Positions 817 through 37,059 of a DNA stretch of 37,059 nt are shown here, in pieces (the stretch's first letter is position 1; each line of letters opens with the position of its first letter). Location of the stretch: NCBI GenBank assembly GCA_903960515.1, contig CAJCBL010000233.1:1-37059 (forward strand). Direction: 5' to 3'. The translations under genes were made by a program, and so were the position numbers. The notes beneath the pieces are model-generated. The model ran no database searches, was not told the DNA's origin, and saw only the letters and a list, made by a program, of their open reading frames with translations. Source of the DNA: an uncultured Verrucomicrobiota bacterium. Lineage in GTDB: Bacteria > Verrucomicrobiota > Verrucomicrobiia > Opitutales > Opitutaceae.

Positions 817-3414
<2,598 letters not shown>

Positions 3415-11929: not shown

Positions 11930-12349
11930 TCAGTGCGCCGCGGCGCCGGGGGCCGGGCTGCAGAATTCGGTGAGCACTCCGAAGGTGGCCTTCGGATGCA
12001 GGAAGGCCACGAGCTTGTCGTGGGCCCCGGTGAAGGGCACCTCGTGGATGAGGCGCACGCCCGCGGCCTTGGCGCCGGCGAGTTGGGCGGTGATGTCGTC
12101 GCTGGCGAAGGCCACGTGGTGGATGCCCTCGCCCTTTTCGGCGAGGAACTTGGCCACGGGGCTGTCGGGTGAAGTGGGTTCGAGCAGCTCGATGGCCGTC
12201 TCGCCGACCTGGTAAAAGGCCGTCTTGACCTTCTGCGAGGGAACTTCCTCGCGGCCGGTGCACTTCAGGCCGAGGGCGCCTTCATAATACTTTGCCGCTT
12301 CGTCGATGGACTTAACGGCAATGCCTAGGTGATCGATCTTGGTAATCAT
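11930..12349 (-). CDS. mce: Methylmalonyl-CoA epimerase
   Basis: A 139-residue glyoxalase/VOC-fold enzyme that interconverts (R)- and (S)-methylmalonyl-CoA, linking the mutase product to the decarboxylase. The probable metal ligands are visible: His7 in KIDHLGIAV, His77/His78 in GEGIHHVAF and Glu128 in VLTEF, with IELLEP between them. Size is normal for the family. It is the first gene of the minus-strand cluster, 42 bases before mmdA, and is divergent from mutA, so both halves of the pathway start from the same 202-base control region. Confidence 0.95.
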   Translation of the reverse strand: MITKIDHLGIAVKSIDEAAKYYEGALGLKCTGREEVPSQKVKTAFYQVGETAIELLEPTSPDSPVAKFLAEKGEGIHHVAFASDDITAQLAGAKAAGVRLIHEVPFTGAHDKLVAFLHPKATFGVLTEFCSPAPGAAAH

Positions 12350-12551
12350 GGAAACTTATCTTGCCAACTGGTTTGATAAGGGGGTGTTATTTTGGGCGTG
12401 ATCGTCAACATCCATTCCACGGCTTTGGTGGCGGCAGTATGCTCGAAGCCGGGCTGGGTGGGTGCGCATGGTTTGTCCAAAATCGCCCGGACTCTGGCAA
12501 CTGCTTGCCGTTGATCAATCACTCATCCTTACTGCCGAGCTTTATTTTCTC
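12350..12551. promoter_or_regulatory. Divergent control region between mce and mutA
   Basis: This 202-base spacer must hold promoters for both the minus-strand cluster and mutAB. A TTGACG hexamer lies on the minus strand at 12403-12408, 53 bases before mce, but no well-spaced -10 partner was found. The sequence before mutA is AT-rich (CTTTATTTTCTC). I looked for a cobalamin riboswitch B12 box, relevant because the mutase uses B12, and saw none. An open frame in phase with mutA extends back to 12462, so part of this could be coding if an earlier start is used. Confidence 0.4.
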
Positions 12552-14486
12552 ATGAGCGCAAAGTTGGATTCTCCTACCGCGTCGCCCGCTGGCGGCAACG
12601 CGAACCCAGATGTCGAGGCGCTTCGTCGCGCCTGGCGTGAAACTGTCGAGAAGGACCTCGCTGGTGTGCCTTTCGAGAAGAAGCTCGTCACGCGCACCGC
12701 CGAGGGCATCGACCTGCAGCCGCTGTATCATCGCGGCATGGTCGAGGCCGTTCCCAATCGCGAATCCCTGCCCGGGCAGGCTCCGTTCCTGCGCGGCAGC
12801 CACGCGCGAGGCGCCAAGGGCGAGATCGCCTGGCGCATCGCCCAGCCGATCCCGGCGGCCTCCCCGGCCGAGTTCAACAAGGCACTACTAGCTGCCCTCG
12901 CCCGCGGCCAGAACGCCGCCCTTGTGCCCTCGGCCTACCTGGCCGACGCAGCCGCGCTCACCGCGGCCCTCAGGGATATCCACTTCGCCGGTGCACCGGT
13001 CTACGCCTCCGTCTGCTCCTCCACTACCGCCGCCGCGCTCACCGCCTCCTTCTCCGCCCTGCTCAAGGCGCGCGGCGAGAGCTGGTCGGCGCTCCAAGGC
13101 GCCGTGACTCTTGACCCGCTCGCCGCTCTCGCCACCGAGGGCAAGCTGCCGGTCTCCCTCGAGGCCGCGACTGCCGAGCTCGCGTCGTGGACTTCCCACG
13201 CCGCCGCCCAGGCCCCCGTGCTCAAGACCATCGGCGTGGACGCCGGTTGGGTAATCGACGCCGGCGGCAACTCCGCCCAGGAGCTCGCCGTAGCCATCTC
13301 GATGGCCGTCGAATACCTGCGCCGCCTGGCCGCCGCCAAGGTCGATGTGAATACCGCCGCCCCGCGCTTCGCCTTCAGCTTCGCTGTGGGCTCGCAGTTC
13401 TTCCCCGAGCTGGCGAAGTTCCGCGCCTTCCGCCTGCTGTGGGCCCGAGTGCTCTCCGCGCACGGCGACGCCTCGCTGGCCGGTGGCGCCAGCCTTCACG
13501 CCCGCACCGCGCTCTTCAACAAGACCGTGCTCGATCCCTATGTGAACATGCTGCGCACCACCACTGAGGCCCTCTCCGCCGTGCTCGGCGGGGTGGACAG
13601 CCTGCAGGTGGGCGCCTTCGACGAGGTGGTGCGCACCCCCGACGAATTCTCCCAGCGTATCGCCCGCAACATCGCGCTCATGCTCTCCGAGGAGTTCAAC
13701 TTCGCCGAGGTGGCCGACGCCGCCGGCGGCTCCTGGCTGGTCGAGAAGCTCACCGACGACCTCGCCCGCAAGGCGTGGGGGCTCTTCCAGGACATCGAGA
13801 AGAAGGGCGGCTTCGCCGCCGCCCTCGCCGCCGGCGAGATCCAGAAGCCCATCGCCGCCTCGGCCTCCGAGAAGCGCAAGCAGTTGGATACCCGCCGACT
13901 CTCCGTGCTGGGCACCAACCTCTTCCCCAACCTCAAGGAGAAGCACCTCGCTCCCTCCGCCGTGGCCGCCGCCCCGGCCTGCGGTTGTGGTTGCGCCGCC
14001 GTGACCGTCACCCCGGTGAAGGCCTGGCGCGCTGCCGAGGGCTACGAAGCCCTCCGCGCCATCGCCGACCGCTTCGCCAAGACCTCGGGCAAACGCCCGC
14101 AGGTCTTCCTCGCCAAGATCGGCCCGGTGAAGCAGCACAAGCCCCGCGCCGACTTCGCCGCCGGCTTCTTCGCCGTGGGTGGTTTCGAGGCCATCGGTAA
14201 GGAGGCCTTCGAGACACCCGAGGCCGCCGCCCAGGCCGCAGCCGCTTCCGGCGCACCGGTGGTAGTCCTCTGCTCCACCGACGATACGTATCCGGTACTC
14301 GTGCCCGCCTTCGCCTCCGCGCTGAAGGCCGCCAAGCCCGGTGTAGTCGTCATCCTCGCCGGTCTCCCGGCCGAGCCCGCCACCGTCGAGGCCTACAAGC
14401 AGGCCGGTATCGACGATTTCATCCACATCCGCGCCAACGTGCGCGAACTGCTCGCCCAACTCCTCGCCAAAATCGGAGCCAAGTGA
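12552..14486 (+). CDS. mutA: Methylmalonyl-CoA mutase small (beta) subunit
   Basis: Non-catalytic partner of MutB in the heterodimeric, B12-dependent mutase that converts succinyl-CoA to (R)-methylmalonyl-CoA. The 644-residue protein has the N-terminal mutase barrel (for example [24 protein letters not shown] and [23 protein letters not shown]) and a degenerate C-terminal B12-domain fold in which the cobalt-ligating DxHxxG is replaced by QHKPRAD, as expected for the small subunit. The ATG at 12552 was preferred over one at 12462 because it gives a normal length. An unusual Cys-Gly-Cys-Gly-Cys run lies near residues 477-483, in the linker between domains. Confidence 0.95.
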
Positions 14487-14491
14487 ACACC

Positions 14492-16669
<2,178 letters not shown>

Positions 16670-16776: not shown

Positions 16777-17378
16777 CGGCCGGGCGGATTTTCACCACAG
16801 AGGACACGGAGCACGCGGAGGCGATTTCCCCGTAGCTGGATGGAGAAGTCATTCAGCCCGGCAGATTCGGCCGCAAGGAACGCAGAGAACTTAAAGAGAT
16901 CGATCTCCGCGGTCCCTGGATGATCTGTGCTTTGCGGTAAGTCCTCTCCGAACCTGTTACAGACGCCAGCCACCGAGAATTTCCATGTAACTGGATGGTG
17001 GAGGATGGTAGTCGGAAACGAAGGCAGGGCTGGCTCTCCGAGCCGTGCGCTCCGAATCTGCCCATTTAGAGGCCTGCCCCGAACCCTGAGCCGTGACCAT
17101 GCACTCGTACCGCTTTGCGCTCTGGCTGGGCCCCAACTCCGGTGCCCGCCTCAGGAGCGTGCTTGCACGCGATCTGCGCGCTGAATTGCGTGCAAGCACG
17201 CTCCTACCAATGATTGGTTACGGCTGAGAAGTGCTGGGTGAAGAGGTCCGGGGCATAGGTGTACTCAAACAATTGTTGAGTGCGCCCAAGGGGAGTTCCG
17301 TCATCGAGCTTGCGGTGCGCTCTTGTCTTTGCGGCCGCTGTATCCAGCCGCTTTAGCGGTGAACCCTTGGCTGGCGGG
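16777..17378. repeat. Gene-free spacer with several repeat families
   Basis: About 600 bases without a convincing gene. It contains a CCACAGAGGACACGGAG-type repeat (16795-16815), a copy of the GTAGCTGGATGG...CATTCAGC hairpin family (about 16832-16860), AACGCAGAG-type repeat (about 16878), an inverted pair of the main REP-like hairpin (17152-17207) and a near-perfect palindrome at 17263-17281 (ACTCAA, CAATTG, TTGAGT with one extra A), which lies about 100 bases downstream of the secreted-protein gene. Confidence 0.7.
17152..17207. repeat. Inverted REP doublet (REPIN-like)
   Basis: GGAGCGTGCTTGCACGC and its reverse complement lie head to head with a 10-to-12-base centre. Each arm is itself a hairpin (GCGTG-CTTG-CACGC type), so the whole can fold as one long cruciform. 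The same arm recurs at 754-776, 34045-34067, 34254-34277 and 37027-37049. Confidence 0.8.
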
Positions 17379-19925
17379 TCAACGGGGCCCGGGTTCGTCG
17401 GCGTACCAGCGGCTTTCGCGGCCTGCGGCGTCGACGGCGGTTACGAGGTAGGCGTCGTTCGCGCGGCCGGCCTCATCTGCATAGTCGGTCCCCGTAACCA
17501 GTTTCCCTGCGGGCTCGGTGTAGGGCGAGTTGATCCAGGTCCACGGTCCGCCAATCGTGGTGGCCCGGTAGATTCGGTAACCGGCTACGCCGGGCACGGC
17601 GGCCCAGCGCAGGTGGTTGGCTCCGTGCTCGTGGTCGACTCGCAGTCTTTGCGGTAGTGCCGGTGCGGTGGCCGGGGAGTATCCGGCGAGCGCGGTTTCG
17701 AGCAGCAGGTCGGCGTGGGCAAACCACAACAGTTCGTTCCACGTCTGTTTGCGGCGACTTTGCGCGTCGAGCCAGTAGGCGGCTTCGGTGCTGCCTATTT
17801 CGCCCCGGTCGGAGGCGCGGGCGAACATCCCGGCGAAGGGCGCGCAGGACCAGTTCTCCCAGCGATGGTCGTGCGCCTGTCCGCGGAAGAAATTGGCCCG
17901 GTCCCAGCGGTAGTCGCCGGCTTCCGGCACGGGGTGGTGTTGGAGGTCGGCGGTGACGTCTACACAGTCGAAGTAGCGGCTCAGCGCGGCCGGGTGCAGC
18001 CAGAGATCTTCGCCGCTGCTCAGTTCCATCGAACGTAGGTGGAAGTCGCTGATCGATTCGTAGAGAAAGTCGCTGGCCTCCGGTCGGCCGATCTCGCCGG
18101 CGTAGGGGCGCTGGCCGTGGCCGTAGATTCCGGTGACGCCGGGGGCGTGCAGGGCGTCGAGTGCCCAGGCGGCGAGGGCGGGGTCGCTTGCGCGGCGGCC
18201 ACCGTAGAGGGCGAGGCCGAGGGGCCCGATCTGCATGTTGAAGGCCGATACGAAGCAGTCCACATGGGGAAACCCGGCGGCGTTTACCCGGCCGAAAGCC
18301 TGCTTCGAGGCCTGGCCGATGGCGCGGCTCGCCGCGGGCAGTCTATCGCCCGGCACGAGGGCGGCGTAAAGGGGCAGGGTGCTGCTTCCGTAGGAGACAT
18401 GGTAGGGGTCGATGCGTCCTTGGTCCTTGGGGTTGCGCGGGCCGGGCGGGGTGGTGCGCGCCCAGCCTGGCAGGTGGAACGCGGGTTCGCACTCGGCGGC
18501 GCCTGGGTGGTTGGCGAACAGGGCGTCGAACTTGATCCGCTCGCGCCGAAGCCAGAGCAGAGCGGCGTCCTGCGCCCACGCGCGTCCCCAATATTTGATT
18601 TCAAGGAAGCGCTGGGCGATCTGCGGCATCGGCGCTCGGCAGTCGGCGGGCCCCAGGGTGGGTTCGTCGACGATGGCAACCAAGGGCTGGAGGTTGCGCC
18701 GCGCCTCGTGCCAGAGCGGCTCCTCGTCCACGGCGGAGGTGAAGACGAAGCGCACCTCTCCCCAGAAGGCGCGCAGCGTGGCGCTGTTGCCTTCGGGCGC
18801 ACGGTGGAAGGAGCTGGGGCCTGCGAACTCCACCGAGGCACCTCGACCAATCTCGATCTGGCCGGCACCGGTTTGTACGTACGGCACCGGCAGCAGGGTC
18901 AGGCCGGCTTCGTGGTTGACCAGGGCATCCAGGAAATGGCCGTTGGTGGAGCGGGTGAGCAGTCGCAGCCCGGCGGGCACGCGAAGGACATGCATCCCGG
19001 CTGCGGAGTCGCCCAGCACCAGGCGGCCCGAGAGCAGGCGGTGGTCGGCTGCACCGACCACTTCGGCCGTCGGCTCGCCCTCGGGGGCCAGGCGTTCGGT
19101 TTGCACAAGCACCGTGCCTCGGCGTGGAATGCGGTAGGTGTATTGGGCGCTGTCGGGCACACCGGGCGGGCCGGTTCGCACCATGAATTTGGAGAACAGG
19201 GGGCCACTACCCCAGAGCACCTCGCGCACTTCGAGTGAGTCGGGGGTTTCGTAGGAGAGCGGCGTGCGCCGTAAAGTGGTGCAGTCGCCGGCCTGCCGGA
19301 CGAGCGTGAGTGCCGGGGCGATCCAGCCTTCTGGCAGTGCGACGGCGCCGGTGCGCGGTGCTATGGCGGCTATGGCCCCGGTACGAGGTCCACGAGCCAA
19401 GAAGGTGACGGAGAGATCGTCGCCGGCGAGAGTCACTCGATCGCCGGTTACGGAGGCGGCTGCGGGTATCGACGAAGCGGGGATGCGGCCGCGAACGAGC
19501 ACGAAGCTCCTGCGCTCCCATGCCGCAAGCGTAAGGGGAAAGTAGAGGTGGAAGCGGGTGATCCGGCCGGAGGCGTCGCGGCGGATGTCGTCGGCCTGGT
19601 GGGGAATGGGGGAGCGGCGAGCGGTGTCGGCATCCGAGTACAGAGCCCAGTCGTCCGGGTCCGCCGGCTCATCCTCGTGGAGAAATACAGGCACCCGGAC
19701 GAGTTCGTCGGTACGAGCTTCTCCGACACGTTCTTCGACGGTGAGGCGGCGCAGTGGTGCGGCTTGGTCGGGGGCGGGGCGCAGCCGCGGGATGTAGGGG
19801 GCGGGCCAGGCCGGCGAGGCGTCGAAGACGGAGGATGTGGTGGCGCCCGCGAGAGCGATTCCGGGGAGCCCGGAGTTGGAGAGGAGAAGGGCGCCAGAGA
19901 GGAGTAGAGCGGTGCGCAGAAGCAT
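17379..19925 (-). CDS. Secreted protein of unknown function with FN3-like C-terminus
   Basis: An 848-residue protein with a clear signal peptide (hydrophobic residues about 5-25, likely cleaved after GIALA). I do not recognise the main body. Residues about 30-380 look beta-rich; about 400-740 look helical and contain many Trp, His and Tyr residues (for example YHVSYGSSTLPLYAAL, DHRWENWSCAPFAGMF). Residues about 745-845 form a fibronectin type III-like domain (NHLRWAAVPGVAGYRIYRA). This order, beta region, helical-toroid-like region and FN3, is common in secreted polysaccharide-active enzymes such as lyases and hydrolases, so a glycan role is plausible but unproven. The gene stands alone, with a palindrome and paired direct repeats upstream. 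Confidence 0.85.
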   Translation of the reverse strand: MLLRTALLLSGALLLSNSGLPGIALAGATTSSVFDASPAWPAPYIPRLRPAPDQAAPLRRLTVEERVGEARTDELVRVPVFLHEDEPADPDDWALYSDADTARRSPIPHQADDIRRDASGRITRFHLYFPLTLAAWERRSFVLVRGRIPASSIPAAASVTGDRVTLAGDDLSVTFLARGPRTGAIAAIAPRTGAVALPEGWIAPALTLVRQAGDCTTLRRTPLSYETPDSLEVREVLWGSGPLFSKFMVRTGPPGVPDSAQYTYRIPRRGTVLVQTERLAPEGEPTAEVVGAADHRLLSGRLVLGDSAAGMHVLRVPAGLRLLTRSTNGHFLDALVNHEAGLTLLPVPYVQTGAGQIEIGRGASVEFAGPSSFHRAPEGNSATLRAFWGEVRFVFTSAVDEEPLWHEARRNLQPLVAIVDEPTLGPADCRAPMPQIAQRFLEIKYWGRAWAQDAALLWLRRERIKFDALFANHPGAAECEPAFHLPGWARTTPPGPRNPKDQGRIDPYHVSYGSSTLPLYAALVPGDRLPAASRAIGQASKQAFGRVNAAGFPHVDCFVSAFNMQIGPLGLALYGGRRASDPALAAWALDALHAPGVTGIYGHGQRPYAGEIGRPEASDFLYESISDFHLRSMELSSGEDLWLHPAALSRYFDCVDVTADLQHHPVPEAGDYRWDRANFFRGQAHDHRWENWSCAPFAGMFARASDRGEIGSTEAAYWLDAQSRRKQTWNELLWFAHADLLLETALAGYSPATAPALPQRLRVDHEHGANHLRWAAVPGVAGYRIYRATTIGGPWTWINSPYTEPAGKLVTGTDYADEAGRANDAYLVTAVDAAGRESRWYADEPGPR

Positions 19926-32223: not shown

Positions 32224-33993
32224 ATGGGCGAAGCCAGCGCCTTTTCCTTAATCTCGTCGGATTTGGACCGTTACACAGGGACGCCGACCGCCCCCGCCGT
32301 GCCCTCAACCCTCGCCAGCCAGACCATCACCCGCGTGCAACACGCGCTTCGCTCCCGCGAAGCGGCGAGCCTGCCTGAGGTCATCAAGCTCATCGAGGAG
32401 CTCTCCTGCCGCGCCTTCTCCATCCCTGTGCAGGAGCTGGCCGACCTCATCAGTCGCGACACCATGGTTACCGCCAAGGTGATCCAATCGGCAAATACCT
32501 TCGGCTACAATCCCTTCGGCCATGTCGTAACCACTGTTACGCAGGCCATCCAGGTGGTCGGCTTCAACAAGATCCGCAACCTCGCCCTCTCGATGCTGCT
32601 CATCGAAAAGGCGCTGCACGGCACCCAGCCCGAGGCCCTGAGGGAATCCGCCGCCCTGGCGCTGTGCAGCGGGCTCTTCGCCCAGGCGCTCACCACCATC
32701 CATCCCGAGCAGGATTCCGAGCAGGCCTTCGTCTTTGCCTGCCTACGCCACTACGGCCGCCTCCTGCTCACCACCTTCATGCCGGAGCAGTTCCAGCAGG
32801 TCCACGAGCGGCCCTCGCAGGAGAGCGAGGCCGACGCCTGCCGACGCATCTTCGGGCTCACCCCGCTTGAGCTCACCAACCATCTTTTCGAGGAATCACG
32901 GCTGCCGCGCGTCATCCTGCGCTGCCTGCAAAACGTGCCGCCCCACCTGCTCGACCAGGCTGCCGCCTCGTCCGAGGAGCGCCTCACCGCCATCACCCAT
33001 TTCGCCGCCGAGCTGGGGGAACTCGTTGTCTCGCCCCGAGTGGGCGCCGCCACTTTTGCCGACGATGCGGAGCGGCTGCGCGCGAAATTCAGCATCAAGC
33101 TCGACCTCACCAAGGATGCCATCTCCATCCTGGTGAAGGTGGTCGATCAGAACCTGCGCGCCTTCAGCCGCACCTACGGAGCGAAAGCGACGGCGTCCGG
33201 GGTGTTCCAACGCATCGCCGAACGCACCAACCAAACCGAGCCCCTGCCGGTGCTGCCCGAGGGCATGCTGCTTACCTTCGCTCCAACGGCCGCAGCTCCG
33301 TCGCTGTCGCAGTCTCCTGAATCCACTTGTAGCGCTGCGCCTGCCCAACCTCGGGCTTCTGCGCTCGCAAGCGAGGGCGGCGCATCTGCCCCCGCTCTTT
33401 CTTCGTCTCCCGCGGGTCCGCCGGCTTCGTCCCCGGTTCCGGAACCGCCCCCAGTGGCGCCGCCCGCGCCCGACGCCGTCGCGCTCCTCACCGAGTGCCT
33501 GATACAACTGGCCGAATTGACCTCTCCCGCCGTCATCGACCTGCGGGCGCTGGATACCACCGCGCTGGCCGCCCTTCGGCGTGCGTTGGACCTGCAGGAC
33601 TGTGTGCTTTTCCATCGCGATTCTGGAGCGCACACCTACACGGCGACCTGCGGGCTGGGCGCTCTATTCGATCTGGTGCGCGGCCGGCCGCTGATCAGCT
33701 CGGATCGGCGCGACGTCTTCAGCATCAGCCTGAACCGGCGTGAGGACGTCCTCATCCGCGACACCTCCGATCCGAAGATACGCCCGTTCCTGCCCGAGTG
33801 GTTGCTGGCGGCCGGGAGCGCAAGCGGGTTCATCCTTCTGCCACTGCTCAACAGCACCGGCTCCATCGCTCTCATCGTAGGCACGCGGACGGGGCCGGGC
33901 CCGCTGCAGCCCACCGCCCGTGAGTTGCAGTTGATCAAAGCCATCCGCCAGCACCTGGTATCCGCGCGCCGCTTGGCGGCGGTGGGGCTCTGA
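32224..33993 (+). CDS. HDOD-domain signalling protein with C-terminal GAF-like region
   Basis: A 589-residue protein. Residues about 40-240 match the HDOD domain (LPEVIKLIEELSCRAFSIPVQELADLISRD, then VTTVTQAIQVVGFNKIRNLALS), a degenerate HD fold used in bacterial signalling and found in regulators of motility, adhesion and cell cycle. A Pro/Ala/Ser linker spans about 350-420. The C-terminal part (about 430-589, LFDLVRGRPLISSDRRDVFSI and GFILLPLLNSTGSIALIVG) has GAF-like strand patterns and may sense a small molecule. It has no membrane segment. It follows the NTF2-like gene by 10 bases and converges with plsY across a repeat array. Confidence 0.85.
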   Translation: MGEASAFSLISSDLDRYTGTPTAPAVPSTLASQTITRVQHALRSREAASLPEVIKLIEELSCRAFSIPVQELADLISRDTMVTAKVIQSANTFGYNPFGHVVTTVTQAIQVVGFNKIRNLALSMLLIEKALHGTQPEALRESAALALCSGLFAQALTTIHPEQDSEQAFVFACLRHYGRLLLTTFMPEQFQQVHERPSQESEADACRRIFGLTPLELTNHLFEESRLPRVILRCLQNVPPHLLDQAAASSEERLTAITHFAAELGELVVSPRVGAATFADDAERLRAKFSIKLDLTKDAISILVKVVDQNLRAFSRTYGAKATASGVFQRIAERTNQTEPLPVLPEGMLLTFAPTAAAPSLSQSPESTCSAAPAQPRASALASEGGASAPALSSSPAGPPASSPVPEPPPVAPPAPDAVALLTECLIQLAELTSPAVIDLRALDTTALAALRRALDLQDCVLFHRDSGAHTYTATCGLGALFDLVRGRPLISSDRRDVFSISLNRREDVLIRDTSDPKIRPFLPEWLLAAGSASGFILLPLLNSTGSIALIVGTRTGPGPLQPTARELQLIKAIRQHLVSARRLAAVGL

Positions 33994-34298
33994 GCGGTGA
34001 CAATGCTGTTACAGATTCGTGCAAACACGCGATCCCGAGCTCAAATCGCGTGCAAGCACGCTCCTACAACGGGGAATCTGTTCGGCCCGTAGGAGCGAGC
34101 TTGCTCGCTATGGTACAGGGCGAAGAGACCGGCCCCTGCAGATCGCGTGCAAGCAAGCATCTACAACGGGGAATTTGTTCGGGCCGTAGGCAGCGAGCTG
34201 GCTCGCGATGGCTCGGGGCGAGGGAATCAGTGGCGTGGGGGCTGGCCGACGGGGATCGCGTGCGAGCACGCTCCTACCAGGTACCGCCCTTCGCCCGT
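33994..34298. repeat. Tandem REPIN-like array
   Basis: Between the convergent HDOD and plsY genes lie alternating REP-like hairpins. ATCGCGTGCAAGCACG at 34045 is followed by GGAGCGAGCTTGCTCGC at 34091. A diverged second unit starts at 34142 (period 97, sharing CTACAACGGGGAAT and TTGTTCGG) with GCAGCGAGCTGGCTCGC near 34190. A third arm, ATCGCGTGCGAGCACGCTCC, starts at 34254. A degraded half-copy lies near 34018-34032. The order is head-to-head, as in REPINs. Confidence 0.85.
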
Positions 34299-34961
34299 TC
34301 ACTTGGCCACGGAGGGCTCAGGCTTCTTCTTCGAAAACTTGCTCTCCGTGCCGTTGAAGAGCCGTTGGATGTTCGTGCTGTGGCGCACAATGATGAACAC
34401 ACCGAGCAAGCCGAAGAACATCGTCAGGAACGCGGTGCGGTGCAGCAGCCAGGCCGATACCGGCAGGCTTGCCGCCAGCAGAATCGAAGCGAGCGACACA
34501 TAGCGCGTGGCATAGAAAACGACGAGCCACACCGCCACACCGAGCAGGGCCACCGGCCAGCACAGCGCCAGCAGGCCGCCGATACTCGTAGCCACGCCCT
34601 TGCCACCGCGAAAGCCGATGAAGCACGAATACGAGTGCCCGACGATCGCCCCGACCATGCCGGCCACAGCCATGCGCTCAACCTGCTCGGCATCGCATGC
34701 GCACCCGGGGCCGACGAACCTCGCGACGATCACCGGCCAGATCGTGGCGAGCACCCCCTTCAGGAAATCGAGCAGGAAGACCAGGTTGCCCGCCTTCTTG
34801 CCCACCGAACGCTTCACGTTGGTCGCCCCGGGATTGCCCGAACCGGCTTTGAAGATGTCCACCCCGTGGGCACGCGCTACCCACACACCAAACGGCAGCG
34901 AACCGAGCAGATAGCCTACGGCAAGGGCGACGACCAGGGCGATGACGAGAGAGGTGATCAT
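34299..34961 (-). CDS. plsY: Acyl-phosphate:glycerol-3-phosphate acyltransferase
   Basis: Integral membrane enzyme that makes lysophosphatidic acid from acyl-phosphate and glycerol-3-phosphate, the first acylation of phospholipid synthesis. The 220-residue protein has about five to seven hydrophobic helices and all three family motifs: SGNPGATNVKR (residues about 41-51), GHSYSCFIGFRGGKGVATSIG and RHSTNIQRLFNGTE. A Gly-Pro-Gly-Cys-Ala-Cys insertion near residue 84 is unusual. The C-terminus is Lys-rich (FSKKKPEPSVAK). It is monocistronic and points toward the repeat array. Confidence 0.96.
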   Translation of the reverse strand: MITSLVIALVVALAVGYLLGSLPFGVWVARAHGVDIFKAGSGNPGATNVKRSVGKKAGNLVFLLDFLKGVLATIWPVIVARFVGPGCACDAEQVERMAVAGMVGAIVGHSYSCFIGFRGGKGVATSIGGLLALCWPVALLGVAVWLVVFYATRYVSLASILLAASLPVSAWLLHRTAFLTMFFGLLGVFIIVRHSTNIQRLFNGTESKFSKKKPEPSVAK

Positions 34962-36871: not shown

Positions 36872-37049
36872 CATTTTCGATTTCGGATTGCCGATTTTCG
36901 ATTGCCGATTGCCGGAGAGCGGGGCGCGGGAGGGCCCCCGTGGGGTTCTCGTACTCGTTCTCGTCCCCGCCCCATGTCGAAGCGCTCAAGAGCATCGGGG
37001 GCCAGCTGTAGCTGAAACATCCAGTCGTAGGAGCGTGCTTGCACGCGAT
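36872..37049. repeat. Short tandem and REP-like repeats at the right edge
   Basis: GATTTTCGATTGCC-type units repeat imperfectly about three times at 36872-36912 upstream of serA. A full REP-like hairpin (GGAGCGTGCTTGCACGC, 37029-37045) lies near the window end. No gene is visible here. Confidence 0.7.
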
Positions 37050-37059
37050 TCAGAGCGCG

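Follow-up and report, generated by a model that had tools for sequence, protein, structure and literature searches.

The repeat array and its neighbours

The window, that is, the whole stretch of 37,059 nucleotides analysed here from an uncultured member of the Opitutaceae, contains an array of six REP hairpins at 34008-34277, which lies between two converging genes. To its left is the gene of an HDOD-domain protein (32224-33993, plus strand; PF08668, E 3.1e-25) and to its right is plsY, encoding glycerol-3-phosphate acyltransferase (34299-34961, minus strand; PF02660, E 1.6e-52). The first-pass annotation had described the flanking genes as convergent and had counted at least five alternating hairpins, and both statements hold. 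The six hairpins alternate in orientation and make up three inverted pairs with their heads outwards, a-b, c-d and e-f; such a pair of REPs (GTAG ... CTAC) is the REPIN unit. The layout of the REP is GTAG-GA-GCGTGC-TT-GCACGC-GAT, with a GTAG head, the bases GA, a 6-bp stem, a TT loop and a GAT tail.

The left partner of the first pair is REP a (34008-34034, plus strand), which is degenerate and was recognised from inverted repeats (I1/I4) that are 74-84% complementary to the later REPs; its partner, REP b (34045-34067), is an exact GTAGGAGCGTGCTTGCACGCGAT on the minus strand. In the second pair, REP c (34089-34111, plus strand; GTAGGAGCGAGCTTGCTCGCTAT) has a GA stem, and its partner REP d (34142-34164, minus strand) is a decayed GT-stem REP. 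The third pair consists of REP e (34186-34209, plus strand), a GA-stem REP in which one inserted base is seen after GTAG, and REP f (34255-34277), which reads GTAGGAGCGTGCTCGCACGCGAT on the minus strand. The decayed members of the array are a, d and e.

The spacer between pairs a-b and c-d is 21 nt long (34068-34088) and is repeated at 34165-34185. The two copies, AACGGGGAATCTGTTCGGCCC and AACGGGGAATTTGTTCGGGCC, are nearly identical, and it was therefore concluded that the REPIN and its flank were duplicated together. The first repeat distance in the array is 97 bases (52 nt at 88% identity) and takes in the spacer as well as the REPIN, whereas the next spacing is 113; the unit of about 97 bases given earlier thus describes the first repeat but not the second. 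Elsewhere in the window, single REPs of the exact GT type are found on the minus strand at 757-776 and at 17188-17207, the latter between genes 14483-16669 and 17379-19925, and a REP with the start of a REPIN occupies 37027-37059 on the plus strand, where the contig ends inside the REPIN.

REPs and REPINs in the genome and the family

A count of the core GTAGGAGCGWGCTTGCWCGC in the 5.5-Mb draft genome, which had been proposed in the first-pass annotation as a check against very few copies, gave 795 matches (398 + 397) at no more than 2 mismatches, while the reversed-pattern control in the same genome gave 0 + 0. In the window, 6 matches at no more than 3 mismatches were found, compared with none in random windows of the same composition. 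Chance is therefore excluded by the empty random windows and the empty reversed control, and the probability that the hairpins are chance palindromes or an unrelated simple repeat is practically nil; such an explanation is refuted by the genome count, by the window shuffles and by the survey of the family described below, in which the controls were near zero.

Pair and gene-context statistics were obtained from a 585-kb sample of the genome, chosen partly near REPs, which holds 130 REPs, 69 of which share the commonest sequence identically. In the same sample, the REPs of neighbouring head-out pairs are separated by exactly 17 nt in 22 of 35 cases. The commonest REPIN form in the genome is accordingly 57 bp long, GTAGGAGCGTGCTTGCACGC-N17-GCGTGCAAGCACGCTCCTAC (full unit GTAGGAGCGTGCTTGCACGCGATCTGCGCTCTGAATCGCGTGCAAGCACGCTCCTAC), and this 57-mer is predicted to fold into a single long single-strand hairpin at -30.9 kcal/mol, shuffled versions giving -10.1 (z -10.8). 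A second, longer REPIN form in the genome combines a GA stem with a GT stem, and it is this form (GA...GT), with some members decayed, that makes up the window array. The earlier description of the array as REPIN-like is borne out both by the three head-out pairs in the window and by the 57-bp form across the genome. The spacers of tandem clusters are nearly identical within an array and unlike between unrelated arrays, which is the pattern of the ordered REPIN clusters in P. fluorescens (PMC3116915). On contig C185 (L079), two REPIN arrays (2626-3075 and 12212-12434) lie 9.6 kb apart and have nearly the same 21-nt spacer, suggesting that an array was copied within that contig.

According to a home-made codon-usage gene finder, 129 of the 130 REPs in the 585-kb sample lie outside predicted genes. 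Their gene context is convergent in 12 cases, co-directional in 27 and divergent in 1 (p 0.003 against intergenic length), so that REPs are enriched between convergent genes and depleted between divergent ones, with 1 divergent site where 8 were expected. This depletion, together with the convergent position of the array itself, would suit hairpins whose main role is that of a functional 3'-end element maintained where two genes converge, ending transcription in both directions or stabilising mRNA, and REPs elsewhere are thought to act at the RNA level, according to the survey of GTAG repeats (PMC3733652). The decay of REPs a, d and e and the copy numbers of 0 to 698 in the family fit an essential role poorly, however; a search of the window against Rfam matched no known structured RNA, and the RNA fold of the array is only modestly better than that of shuffles (z -1.9). 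A primarily functional element of this kind is unlikely, if not extremely so, and an effect on the two convergent genes, for example through hairpins that protect or end their mRNAs, would be secondary. The HDOD orthologues in two genomes of the same genus (G001 and G002) have no REP nearby; the gene order differs there, which makes the HDOD-plsY junction of these genomes uninformative as an empty site.

A wider pattern, GTAGGAGCNNGCTTGCNNGC, was searched in 252 genomes of the host's family, and at least one copy was found in 127 of them. Copy numbers range from 0 to 698, the host genome having the highest and the next genome 452, and for two congeners of the host the counts are only 23 and 36. 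In sampled genomes of the phylum beyond the family, there were 0 to 2 matches. The stems of the REPs vary in the family, with both arms changing together (GT/AC, GA/TC, CT/AG, CC/GG and TC/GA). The second-largest population, with 452 copies of the REP pattern, belongs to a genome of another genus (G223) and is apparently an independent expansion.

RAYTs of the family and of the host genome

In other Opitutaceae, small RAYT genes (about 175-200 amino acids) have GTAGGAGC-headed REPs on both sides, usually within a few tens of bases. Such RAYTs were found in the genomes G017, G027, G031, G079, G093, G128, G131, G174, G235, G246, G260 and G261, and the Y1/HUH transposase domain of these REP-flanked RAYTs is of the TnpAREP kin; the RAYT profile hits the solved structure of E. 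coli TnpArep (4er8) at E 7.5e-12. In one of them, the REP-flanked RAYT of G027 (L164, contig C102, 1501-2026), a Ser is aligned at the catalytic Tyr115 of E. coli TnpAREP, and the genome has about 50 REPs. Other RAYT subclades occur with other REPs, including GTGGGAGC, GTRGGTCG and GTAGGGGC. The REP type follows the RAYT subclade: the GTAGGAGC label changes 3 times on the RAYT tree, compared with 11.1 times after shuffling, and none of 500 shuffles was as low. A single origin of this label on the tree is not rejected (p-AU 0.42). A strong RAYT match was found in 35 of the 57 REP-rich genomes (at least 20 copies) and in 37 of the 195 others, giving an odds ratio of 6.8 (p 2.7e-9); these counts were transcribed by hand from the survey, and the test ignores kinship among the genomes, the related ones of which are not independent. 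The REPIN/RAYT reading is thus supported at the family level by sequence comparison.

In the host genome, a RAYT query gave 0 matches to the REP-bearing subclade at E <= 1e-3 in the 379-contig assembly, and the RAYT profile picked up only a divergent RAYT accompanied by different REPs and, with a weak match, a third one. The first-pass annotation had raised a shared RAYT-type mobiliser and had proposed a search for a hairpin-flanked RAYT gene in the genome or its relatives. The relatives do have RAYTs flanked on both sides by the hairpin, with the REP type following the subclade, but no RAYT of the cognate subclade was found in the host assembly.

This absence is what would be expected if the REPINs were orphans, in which case the description of the array stands, but the genome lost the cognate RAYT not long ago, leaving a population that undergoes only decay and local duplication. 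Likewise, 22 of the 57 REP-rich Opitutaceae are without a strong RAYT match, and REP/RAYT units are missing by deletion in some strains, as noted by Di Nocera et al. (PMC3733652). On the other hand, the population looks young, since the commonest sequence is identical in 69 of the 130 sampled REPs. Moreover, REPs are found at 5 of 36 contig ends, where about 0.9 were expected; contigs break at REPs, and therefore a RAYT between two REPINs could easily be lost in assembly. A REPIN-flanked RAYT would be a fragment of roughly 0.7 kb, shorter than any contig examined, so that an assembly gap accounts for the absence as well as loss does. Recent loss of the RAYT is plausible, if somewhat less probable than its opposite. 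It leaves the identification as REPINs untouched and differs only on whether they are active at present, and the confidence placed in it overlaps on purpose with that in the best explanation.

Other Y1 proteins of the host genome were considered as movers of the REPINs, namely a multi-copy family of 327 amino acids and a 388-amino-acid relative encoded on contig C185. The C185 gene is followed, about 0.25-0.6 kb beyond its 3' end, by six REPs, and the genome contains about ten complete copies of the 327-amino-acid family besides many fragments. Against this, relatives of the C185 protein were compared at 49 loci, and at no locus does a REP stand beside the gene, one having a single poor match 2 kb away; the second array on C185, 9.6 kb off, shares the spacer as local duplication predicts; and the 327-amino-acid family is marked by a conserved 5' end of its own (AGAAGGGACAGGTCGG) and is not regularly flanked by REPs. 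It is therefore quite improbable that either of them moved the REPINs. Both were rejected as the cognate, the C185 protein on the 49 loci and the family on its own 5' end and lack of a regular REP flank, and the position of the C185 protein next to an array is, judging from these loci, probably coincidental. The C185 protein scored 56.7 bits against the NCBIfam model REP_Tyr_transpos, below the cut-off of 80. The named relatives of a Y1 protein from the host genome are mostly from Opitutaceae and other Verrucomicrobiota, and on this basis the host would belong to Opitutaceae or close to it, the name used here for the surveyed family.

The 327-amino-acid Y1/HUH protein (MRLGRIKVSPEEGPAAYHCMTRVV...) has copies on contigs C2, C90, C107, C122, C125, C164, C186, C323, C346 and others of the host genome G000 (L025-L040). 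The copies have in common a 5' end, AGAAGGGACAGGTCGGAAATYTTAGAC, that precedes the ATG by about 57 bases, and their 3' sides mostly differ, as if the left end alone were fixed. On contig C280 (L223), a divergent RAYT with an open frame of 231 amino acids (about 1340-1917, plus strand) lies inside tandem copies of the REP GTAGCTGAAGCGCGAAGCGATTCAGC. It was rejected as the cognate because it is surrounded by these REPs of its own, and RAYT and REP (76 copies in the genome) are read as a second REP/RAYT system of the host. A 203-amino-acid RAYT of another group is found on contig C111 (L024, 1-800) after tandem units holding GGGGTCAAACCCTAATTTCTGTGG on the minus strand.

Taken together, the feature in the window is very probably a genuine tandem cluster of REPINs of the GTAG-1 class, its RAYT-driven spread and local tandem growth being read from its anatomy and from the relatives. 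A RAYT, as a Y1/HUH single-strand transposase, would recognise GTAG and the hairpin on single-stranded DNA and would then cut, spreading REPINs over the genome; the window array would then have been enlarged by local duplication of the REPIN with its 21-nt flank. There is a slim chance that this REPIN population, the largest in the family, persists without a cognate RAYT, either moved in trans by a non-cognate Y1 transposase, such as the 327-amino-acid family, or amplified by host replication and recombination.

Relation to known systems

The GTAG-1 class of the published survey (PMC3733652), Pseudomonas REPs among its members, is defined by GTAG with two extra bases (GW), by a stem and loop that are both short, and by a tail of 3 bp; the REP of the window, whose core was seen from the first to resemble the Pseudomonas REP, is built in this way. 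Opitutus terrae is described in the same survey as highly enriched in GTAG repeats, with families 17, 19 and 20 named (Di Nocera et al. 2013). This kind of array is already known in principle in this bacterial group; the host has the largest such population among 252 relatives. The well-sampled pairing of REPINs and RAYTs is extended to a whole family of Verrucomicrobiota, in which there are several types of REP and each goes with a RAYT subclade of its own. The spread of copy numbers, 0 to about 700, provides a natural series for testing the growth, persistence and orphaning of REPIN populations, and REPINs explain why some contigs of the host genome end where they do.

A Pseudomonas plasmid RAYT, the one RAYT compared, is homologous to the Opitutaceae one, with 34% identity, and a REP core of similar sequence closely follows its 3' end. 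Its branch on the tree is long and falls outside the GTAGGAGC group, that is, the REP-bearing Opitutaceae clade, though a joint clade is not rejected (p-AU 0.09). Convergence and a shared mobiliser had been offered as alternatives. Pseudomonas and Opitutaceae thus share the REP class and the RAYT family, but the near-identical core may be either inherited or convergent.

The REPINs of Pseudomonas fluorescens SBW25 (Bertels and Rainey 2011, PMC3116915), in which tandem clusters repeating the REPIN with its flanks are known, are alike in the unit of a head-out REP pair, in lying mostly outside genes, in their tandem clusters of REPIN and flank, and in the association with RAYTs, which is seen here in the relatives. 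They differ in that the present host belongs to another phylum, the commonest unit here is 57 bp, and the cognate RAYT was not found in the host assembly. The GTAG-1 repeats of the survey (PMC3733652) have in common with the present REPs the GTAG head, the GA extra bases, the 6-bp stem, the TT loop and the GAT tail, and likewise lie between convergent and co-directional genes; that survey was made without the host genome. As for the E. coli TnpAREP/RAYT system (PDB 4er8; PMC8266576), the REP-flanked RAYTs of the relatives have the PDHxH motif in common with it, and most of them also the catalytic Tyr in the alignment, whereas the stems of the Opitutaceae REPs are perfect and lack the bulge of the E. 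coli ones, resembling group 3 systems in this.
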